NCBI GenBank assembly: GCA_013215095.1
Contig: JABSPM010000009.1
Span: 1-64,000 of the forward strand
Direction: 5' to 3'
Length of the DNA: 64,000 nt
DNA from: Flavobacteriaceae bacterium
GTDB lineage: Bacteria > Bacteroidota > Bacteroidia > Flavobacteriales > Flavobacteriaceae
Positions 37,512 to 64,000 of the stretch are shown one piece after another (positions within the stretch are counted from its first letter, which is position 1; each line of letters opens with the position of its first letter). The position numbers and the translations under genes were made by a program. The notes beneath the pieces were generated by a model. It was not told where the DNA came from. It ran no database searches and was given only the letters and a program-made list of their open reading frames with translations.

Positions 37512-38189
37512 ATGACCAAACCTCTTAGTGCATCAGATTTAAAAGCCTTAGAAGCACAGTTGTATTGCCCTAGTGGTGTATTGGGTGTTGATATTGGTAA
37601 GCGTTTACATCAAAATAATATCGGTATGACTATGGGTTCTGTTGATGCGATGCAGCTTTCCAAAGGGGATTGTGTTTTAGAAATTGGTCATGGGAATTGC
37701 GGCCATTTATATGCGCTTTTATCTAAAGCTGAACATCTTAACTATCAAGGTTTAGAAATTTCGGAACTCATGAAAACCGAAGCAGAAAGGATAAATCAGG
37801 AGTTATGTGCGAATTACCCCGTGAAGTTTCAACTTTATGATGGCTTAACCTTGCCGTATAATGGAGCTATATTTCACAAAATAGTTTCGGTTAATACCAT
37901 TTATTTTTGGCAAGAGCCTTTGGGGTTTCTTAATCAGATGTATGATATATTGCAGCCCAATGGGATCTGCGTTATCGCATTTGCTCTAAAGGATTTTATG
38001 GAAACGCTTCCGTTTGTTGGCAATTATTTTCGGTTGTACGCTACTGCAGATTTCAAAGTTTTAGTAGGGCAATCTAAATTTGATAGTGTATCGATTACTA
38101 CGCATGAAGAAGCTGTAATGAACAAAGCCAATGAACCTGTAAAACGCACTTATGCTATTGCAGTACTAAAAAAATCCATGTCACAATAG
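37512..38189 (+). CDS. Class I SAM-dependent methyltransferase
   Basis: The 225-aa protein has the SAM-binding motif I CVLEIGHGNCGHLYALL, an acidic residue at the end of the next strand (YQGLEISELM), and motif IV-like FHKIVSVNTIYFWQEPLGFLNQM. This is the UbiE/ArsM-like core. The substrate is unknown. It begins 3 bp after the iron-transport ATPase gene and is thus in the same operon, which makes an iron- or siderophore-related role possible but unproven. Confidence 0.85.
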   Translation: MTKPLSASDLKALEAQLYCPSGVLGVDIGKRLHQNNIGMTMGSVDAMQLSKGDCVLEIGHGNCGHLYALLSKAEHLNYQGLEISELMKTEAERINQELCANYPVKFQLYDGLTLPYNGAIFHKIVSVNTIYFWQEPLGFLNQMYDILQPNGICVIAFALKDFMETLPFVGNYFRLYATADFKVLVGQSKFDSVSITTHEEAVMNKANEPVKRTYAIAVLKKSMSQ

Positions 38190-38362
38190 ACGTATTCAAT
38201 TGTTAAATAAAAGACTGAATTACGTTTCTATTTTTGGATGTTTTAAGGCTATGGTCTGCTGCAATGTTACTGTCAGCTGTGGTTTTATAGTAGAGAAATA
38301 TTTTGTCTTTAAATGTGAGAATGCGTGGTGCTAAAATGCCATTTAAAAATCTCTAACACCTA

Positions 38363-38520
38363 TTCTTCTGTTAAATTACACATTATAAAAATGATAATTT
38401 TTTAGGTTAGATAAAAAAGAAAAATCAGTCATAGCATTAGTTGAGAGTTGTTTTTATTTTGAAAGATAAGACAAAAAAGCGCATTTTAACGCAGTAATTT
38501 AGGAGTAGAGATGGTATAAC
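38363..38520 (+). repeat. Dispersed repeat, copy A
   Basis: About 160 bp align with the minus strand of 46971-47135, with few mismatches and small indels. Shared words include TTCTTCTGTTAAATTAC, GATAAAAAAGAAA, CAGTCATAGC, GCATTTTAA and GTAATTTAGGAGTAGA. The first 40 bases also match 63581-63620. No open frame survives in this copy. Confidence 0.75.
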
Positions 38521-46900: not shown

Positions 46901-46970
46901 GTCTCACCCTGCAAATCCTACAAAGTAGTGTTGGATTGCACTTTAAGTCAAGTCTAACTTTTTTAAGGTT

Positions 46971-47135
46971 GATGGTATAACATCTATCTACTCCTAAATT
47001 ACTCAATTAAAATGCACTTTTTTTGCCTTGTCTTTCACAATAAAAATAACTCTTATAACTAAGGCTATGACTGTTATTTCTTTTTTATCTACTACAAAAA
47101 TCATTATTTTTCTAATGCGTAATTTAACAGAAGAA
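46971..47135 (-). repeat. Dispersed repeat, copy B (inverted)
   Basis: Read on minus, this is the longest copy, matching 38363-38520 over its whole length and 63581-63620 over the first 40 bases. In one frame its beginning reads LLLNYALEK then stop, which copy C repeats as LLLNYTLEK then stop, with two of three base changes synonymous. A 33-codon frame (47003-47104, minus) follows but is not conserved in the other copies. Confidence 0.75.
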
Positions 47136-47404
47136 CTGCTATAATACCATCATAATAGTTTTTTGTAAGTAATTTGAGTAAGTCTATATTTACTTTAATA
47201 GTTAGTCTTTGTTTATAAGCACTGGTCGCGTAGTCAACACTAGCCTCGTATTTCTATGATATGAAGAGTCTGTAGATAAAAGTGAAATATCCTTTAATCA
47301 AGGTTGGATGAGCTTTGTCAACACACTTTTTGTACTTTAAAGTTTTGTATATCATGTTGTTATGTTTTTAATTGTAAGGGTGTATTATGCTAAAAAACGA
47401 TGGG

Positions 47405-63377: not shown

Positions 63378-63670
63378 TTTTGTTTGTAAATCTTCATACG
63401 GGAAAAGTTAATCTTGTCAAAGATGATATCAAAAGGAATTTTTATAATAGAAGAAAAGATAAATATTCCAAAGCACTATGATTTATGAGATGCACTAGGC
63501 TTTATAAGATATTGTCGCTCCCACACGAAAGAATGCTTTCGGTAGCAAGGAATAGCTGTAAATGATAAACATTATACGAGTTCTTTTGTTAAATTATACA
63601 TTAGAAAAATGATGATTTTGGTAACACAACCAACATATATAGAAAAACATTCAAATCCAGACTTAGAAGA
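63378..63670. other. Gap between the NACHT gene and the endonuclease V remnant
   Basis: No intact gene. A decayed frame reads GIFIIEEKINIPKHYDL then stop around 63440-63490, and repeat copy C lies at 63581-63620. No clear terminator follows the NACHT gene. Confidence 0.5.
63581..63620 (+). repeat. Dispersed repeat, copy C (short)
   Basis: About 40 bases match the starts of copies A (38363) and B (47135 on minus): TTCTTTTGTTAAATTA, then CATTAGAAAAATGATGATTTT. Similarity stops after that. Confidence 0.6.
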
Positions 63671-64000
63671 ATGATTTTAGCAATTGATGTACATTACAAA
63701 GGACATGGTAGTGCTCGAGCGGTAGGGGCTTTGTTTCATTGGAATGCTATGAAAGCAGAACAGGTTGTAATCGAATCCATAGCGGATGTCCAACCATAAA
63801 TTTCTGGTCAGTCTTACAAAAGAGAGCTGCCTTGTGTCATGACAATTATCAGAAAGATACAACTTTCAGAAATAGAGGTTGTTATAGTAGATGGTCATGT
63901 GTATGTAGATAATAATAAAACCTACGGTTTAGGAGGTTATACTTGGGAGGCTATAGAGTACAAAGTACCTGTAATAGGTGTTGCTAAAAGAGGATTTTTT
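63671..64000 (+). pseudogene. nfi: Endonuclease V-like gene with in-frame stop (partial)
   Basis: From the ATG at 63671 the frame reads MILAIDVHYKGHGSARAVG and continues to TAA at 63797-63799. The same frame stays open afterwards to the window end, with SYKRELPCVMTIIRKIQLSE, EVVIVDGHVYVD and GLGGYTWEAIEYKVPVIGVAK, all typical of the endonuclease V (deoxyinosine 3'-endonuclease) family. The active-site Asp of the first strand (Asp6), the Glu in RELP and the Asp in VDGHV are retained. The stop replaces the residue expected to be Tyr in the PYIP-like wedge (P-stop-I-S). The gene runs off the right edge. Probably a recent nonsense pseudogene; sequencing error or readthrough is possible. Confidence 0.75.

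Follow-up and report, generated by a model that had tools for sequence, protein, structure and literature searches.

The intergenic DNA in front of rplM recurs elsewhere in the same stretch, which raises the question of what kind of repeat it is and how it came to be dispersed. The window, i.e. the whole stretch of 64,000 nucleotides that was analysed, is part of contig C108 of the host genome (G000, 3.07 Mb). The first-pass annotation had described a dispersed non-coding repeat at three places, had reported that no terminal inverted repeats were seen, and had interpreted the repeat as a possible remnant of a coding unit.

Copies of the repeat in the window

The three places are homologous. 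A search with copy A recovered copy B with E=5.9e-42 and 84% identity over 159 nt, and the first 53 nt of copy B matched copy C with E=1.2e-11, the match spanning 63571-63623. A 23-nt probe taken from the start of the repeat matched only three places in the window, namely copies A, B and C, compared to an expected number of 0.01. The dispersed non-coding repeat is thus confirmed; its three places stand, and their limits were corrected to those given here:

38354..38356: TAA, left target-site duplication of copy A
38357..38516, plus strand: copy A, full-length MITE of 160 nt between the gene ending at 38189 and rplM; found by similarity searches and matched over exactly these bases by a covariance model (E=2.0e-17)
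38517..38519: TAA, right target-site duplication of copy A
46978..47141, minus strand: copy B, full-length MITE of 164 nt with small insertions and an eroded 3' end, located after the MMPL gene
47142..47144: TTA on the 5' side of copy B
63572..63574: TTA adjoining the 5' end of copy C
63575..63623, plus strand: copy C, the 5' third of the MITE alone, its 3' part being lost; found by its similarity to copy B

The 3' side of copy B reads GATG-TTA-TACC. Its TTA is either the target duplication, left after loss of GTA, or else a mutated end. Copy B (window 46965-47150) is flanked by GATGGTATTA on one side and by TACCATC on the other, which suggests that its target was itself a palindrome of element-like ends. 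Copies on contigs C25 and C82 likewise adjoin other element-like ends. A reading frame starts just 3' of copy C and extends over window positions 63671-64000 and beyond (C108:63000-67000). We take it to be endonuclease V-like; an in-frame stop after 42 codons and more stops further on give it the appearance of a pseudogene.

Anatomy of the repeat family in the host genome

Counting copies and defining their ends, the check proposed by the first-pass annotation, gave about 43 separate places in similarity searches of the host genome with copies A and B. The repeat therefore has further genomic copies, and the alignment between copies A and B is far from chance level. The copies have a size of about 160 nt or about 100 nt, and fragments occur as well. 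The intact unit comprises 160 nt, begins with TACC, ends with GGTA and carries imperfect inverted repeats at both ends; its host-genome consensus is TACCAGTTCTTCTGTTAAATTACACATTAGAAAAATGATGATTTTTTGTGTTAGATAAAAAAGAAAAATCAGTCATAGCCTTAGTTAAGAGTTATTTTTATTTTGAAAGATAACGCAAAAAAGCGCATTTTAATTGAGTAATTTAGGAGTAGAGATGGTA. The terminal repeats that had been missed match at 17 of 28 mirror-register positions in copy A and at 21-26 of 28 in intact relatives (17-26 across the intact copies including copy A). The 100-nt forms are devoid of the apical part of the hairpin described below, and their loop is seen in two inverted orientations, GTGTTAGAT and ATCTAACGC. Among 162 copies compared to simple ORF calls, five overlap a reading frame and the remainder are intergenic. 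No outward promoter motif was evident in the consensus upon inspection by eye.

The host genome also contains a second MITE subfamily, whose ends are of the type TACCATTTTTCAATTGAAATTACTTGAATAAAACGCC and whose centre (TAGCTGAGGCTAT) is similar. Its places are C24:46060, C31:44943, C40:74296, C106:10047 and one on C107.

In copies B and C, the first part of the repeat contains a short open stretch, LLLNYxLEK followed by a stop, which had been taken as a hint that the repeat is the degenerate end of a repeated unit that formerly was coding. Across 28 copies, this frame shows 14 substitutions at the first, 14 at the second and 7 at the third codon position. Third positions are therefore the least variable, which is the reverse of a synonymous pattern. 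Moreover, the stretch is the terminal inverted repeat itself, and complete relatives consist of 160 nt that encode no protein and have no common reading frame. A coding origin can practically be dismissed.

Target-site duplications and empty sites

In 14 of the 16 host-genome copies that have both ends intact, the same 3-mer is found on both sides. These 3-mers are TTA, TAA and, once, TGA (contig C98). The middle base of the flanking 3-mer agrees in 15 of the 16 copies, a value that was reached in 12 of 100,000 permutations. For copies with intact ends from other genomes, identical 3-mers were found in 57 of 90 cases (TTA/TTA 31, TAA/TAA 26); the corresponding permutations (n=20,000) gave 27 on average and never more than 43. 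Duplications of other lengths were rare among these 90 copies, with none at k=2 and three at k=4. Short forms without the apical domain also bear target duplications; the apical domain may thus be dispensable for mobility.

In order to look for unoccupied sites, the flanks of six copies from one species were joined without the element and searched across the genus. The joined flanks align continuously over the junction in sister species, i.e. these species possess precise empty sites. The clearest example is site 0, where three species contain a single TTA and another sister carries the element. The repeat is short (160 nt), is present in many copies without a transposase gene, has terminal inverted repeats and a 3-bp target-site duplication, and its insertion is shown by empty sites. 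With high confidence, it is a MITE.

Relationship to IS630-type transposases

A search of the host genome with the end pattern of the MITE detected further ends near contig breaks, which are part of a longer repeat. This longer repeat encodes an IS630-type transposase, whose HTH part and DDE_3 part (PF13358) lie in two frames; many of its host-genome copies are broken at contig ends. Its ends read TACCATTTCTTG... and are flanked mostly by TTA or TAA. In the related genome G006, the IS630 copies start with TACC, end with GGTA and are bounded on both sides by TTA or on both sides by TAA. Beyond the common TACCA, the ends of IS630 and MITE are identical at up to 22 of 25 positions. The maximum at 324 control TACCA sites was 18, sites with values of at least 20 having been set aside as element ends. 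Furthermore, separate IS630 groups pair with separate MITE subfamilies according to their end sequences.

Because the MITE resembles these elements in its ends and has the same TTA/TAA duplication, it is likely to be mobilised by an IS630-like transposase. On account of the TNA duplication, an IS5-type parent was also considered; it was rejected, as no transposase other than the IS630 type turned up with matching ends. In general, the duplication ascribed to IS630 elements is TA and not TNA. The duplication observed here, for the MITE as well as for the IS630 copies seen, is the 3-bp TTA/TAA rather than TA, and the TGA case fits poorly to a plain TA target. Taken together, there is good support from end sequences and flanks that IS630-type (DDE_3) transposases mobilise the MITE in trans.

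The best end matches of the IS630 groups from the host genome and from G006 are MITE subfamilies of other genera or genomes, and a strong same-genome match of IS630 and MITE ends was not found for these groups. Additionally, of 12 MITE-rich genomes searched with a single query protein, 11 gave no IS630 relative at E<=1e-10. For this kind of element in general, mobilisation by IS630-type transposases thus has good support, which does not extend to every single genome. No autonomous element with the inner sequence of the MITE was found, and a search via unpaired ends revealed no parent carrying the full MITE sequence at its ends. The last 250 bases of C24 contain what appears to be an IS630 reduced to about 240 nt by an internal deletion, possibly a MITE in the making. 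Note that it is located at a contig end, such that a misjoin is possible.

Distribution

By similarity search, full-length elements with approximately 69-73% identity were found in G036 and G006, which belong to the same family, and in G037, which represents a different family within this order. From 14 sequences a covariance model was derived, which gave matches in 59 of 249 genomes of the host family (E<=1e-5), in 15 of 296 genomes of the order (E<=1e-6), four of which lie in two other families, and in 8 of 345 genomes of the phylum, one of which belongs to another family of the class. Five closely examined genomes contain 12 to 53 matches each, counts in which a few places were matched on the other strand too. 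The repeat is dispersed over many genomes of marine flavobacteria. The named hosts of a core pattern are Flavobacteriaceae and include Algibacter, Tamlana, Flavivirga, Kordia, Dokdonia, Tenacibaculum, Polaribacter and Lutibacter, among others. The length is 158-162 nt in 117 of 121 non-redundant copies outside the host genome; longer variants of 179-184 nt also occur. In G160, a subfamily of about 183-184 nt exists alongside the usual one of 160 nt.

A conserved hairpin with covarying inner helices

Descriptions of bacterial MITEs usually concern one species or its close relatives, and the hairpins of such elements can be regarded as a side effect of the DNA being palindromic. Individual elements from other genera form one end-to-end hairpin with z-scores of -7 to -10 relative to dinucleotide shuffles; the z-score of host-genome copies is only about -2. 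RNAalifold analysis of 30 sequences yielded 58 pairs, 44 of which display compensatory changes. The inner helices, which lie outside the inverted repeats, are 94.7% paired compared to 84.3% in shuffles, two-sided changes occur at 21 pairs compared to 9.5, and the covariation score is 0.321 compared to 0.132. These scores were equalled by none of 500 shuffles, and the signal was destroyed when partners were slid against each other. The best-conserved part is the apex, GCATAGCC-n-TAGYTACGG; the apical motif GCATAGCCnTAGYTACGG includes conserved mismatched positions. At gathering score, the Rfam models had no hit in the window; 7 loci were also compared to Rfam at E<=1, again with no hit on the element.

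Strand asymmetry of the hairpin

Were double-stranded DNA the form in which the palindrome is maintained, pairs should be lost to G-T and to A-C equally often. In 16 representatives of exactly 160 nt, we counted 86 G-U and 9 A-C pairs. For the inverted repeats alone, where the register is set by geometry, the ratio is 47 to 7. Most representatives used for these counts came from the structure-aware model; the copies from G036 and G037, which had been found by similarity before that model existed, show an agreeing pattern. At the level of subfamily consensus sequences, G-U exceeds A-C by 42 to 3. The element strand is more stable than its complement in all of 32 representatives, with means of -49 and -33 kcal/mol, respectively. 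At the level of individual copies, the ratio is 32 to 18 in other genomes (p=0.065), and no bias exists in the host genome (G-U 21, A-C 25, other 35).

The one-sided wobble suggests selection on one strand, in the form of RNA or of single-stranded DNA, in those lineages that have spread, and a strand-specific hairpin under selection has good support from these comparisons. The resident host-genome copies seem to decay neutrally, with no sign of individual maintenance. One might argue that the hairpin is a passive, unselected by-product of the palindromic origin of an IS630-type MITE, given that palindromic sequence and good folding are general properties of MITEs (PMC2229807) and that host-genome copies change neutrally. 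This explanation predicts equal numbers of G-U and A-C pairs, against the ratios found for subfamily consensus sequences and representatives, and does not account for covariation in helices outside the inverted repeats; we consider it unlikely.

The strand is probably selected as RNA, single-stranded DNA being less likely. An element moving as a strand-specific single-stranded DNA hairpin would agree with the strand-specific pairing asymmetry, because DNA hairpins tolerate G-T wobble and the G-U excess would then reflect G-T pairs. The two inverted orientations of the apical loop in the short forms, which suggest arm-to-arm recombination, point in the same direction. Against this, the element creates a 3-bp duplication at empty sites and has ends in common with DDE-type IS630 elements; transposons that move as single strands (IS200/IS605) are not known to duplicate their target. 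Transposition as single-stranded DNA is therefore quite unlikely.

The broad distribution, the near-constant length of 158-162 nt and the covarying pairs could also be expected of a structured regulatory RNA family that is owned by the host and was copied by a transposon only by accident. It is very unlikely that the element is such an RNA, as target duplications lie right at its ends, empty sites exist, host-genome copies decay without pair bias, and presence is patchy even within the family (59 of 249 genomes).

We conclude that the repeat is very probably an IS630-mobilised MITE one strand of which forms a selected hairpin, and propose a role in read-through for the latter. An inserted element might be read through from the neighbouring gene, and the transcript might fold into the hairpin, which might be cut by a double-strand RNase or attenuate the read-through. 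The harm of insertion would thus be limited, and subfamilies keeping the hairpin would be favoured. This role in processing or attenuation, similar to what has been proposed for NEMIS and ERIC RNA (PMC2229807), is a tentative guess of low confidence. The gene 5' of the element is in sense in 61 versus 46 cases outside the host genome (p=0.18) and in 25 versus 8 cases within it (p=0.005); sense-only arrangements number 52 and antisense-only arrangements 32 (p=0.04). As this orientation bias is weak, a read-through function is not strongly supported.

Comparison with known elements

Compared by published description, the closest in kind is RUP from Streptococcus pneumoniae, a short, gene-free, intergenic and hairpin-forming MITE whose ends resemble IS630-Spn1 (PMC2229807, PMC3049150). 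RUP has a length of 107 bp, uses a TA target and is confined to one species and close relatives (PMC2229807, PMC3049150), whereas the element described here has 160 nt, a TTA/TAA 3-bp duplication, hosts from many genera and several families, and strand-specific covariation across genera. The Correia/NEMIS elements of Neisseria exist in two sizes of about 155 and 107 bp, which differ by an internal segment; their transcripts fold as long hairpins, and cutting of NEMIS RNA by RNase III has been proposed (PMC2229807). By description, the two size classes resemble the 160- and 100-nt forms of the host genome, whereas host phylum and target differ. ERIC/RU-1 of enterobacteria is likewise an intergenic, hairpin-forming MITE, albeit, by its description, with 127 bp and different hosts; its RNA alters the stability of co-transcribed mRNA in an orientation-dependent manner (PMC2229807). 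Nearest by phylum is MITECca01 from Cardinium (Bacteroidota), which has spread in one genome, apparently via a parent insertion sequence, but has about 240 bp and IS982-type ends and is known from one strain only (PMC9769881).

What distinguishes the present element from these systems is its TTA/TAA duplication, its occurrence in many genera with hardly any variation in length, and the bias of its wobble pairs to one side. No published description of such a family in Bacteroidetes or Flavobacteriaceae was found in the open-access literature.

Implications

The covariance model offers an annotation route for a repeat that is present in about a quarter of the sampled family genomes. The comparison of 30 sequences indicates that pairing on one strand only is preserved in lineages where the element spreads, but not among the copies residing in the host genome. 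RNA folding as a fitness trait of a selfish element thereby becomes testable. It is possible, though short of probable, that the element is a mobile structured RNA, whose success rests on the 160-nt strand-specific hairpin with its conserved apical motif. If this is true, the transcript would join the DNA ends as part of the mechanism of transposition or persistence.
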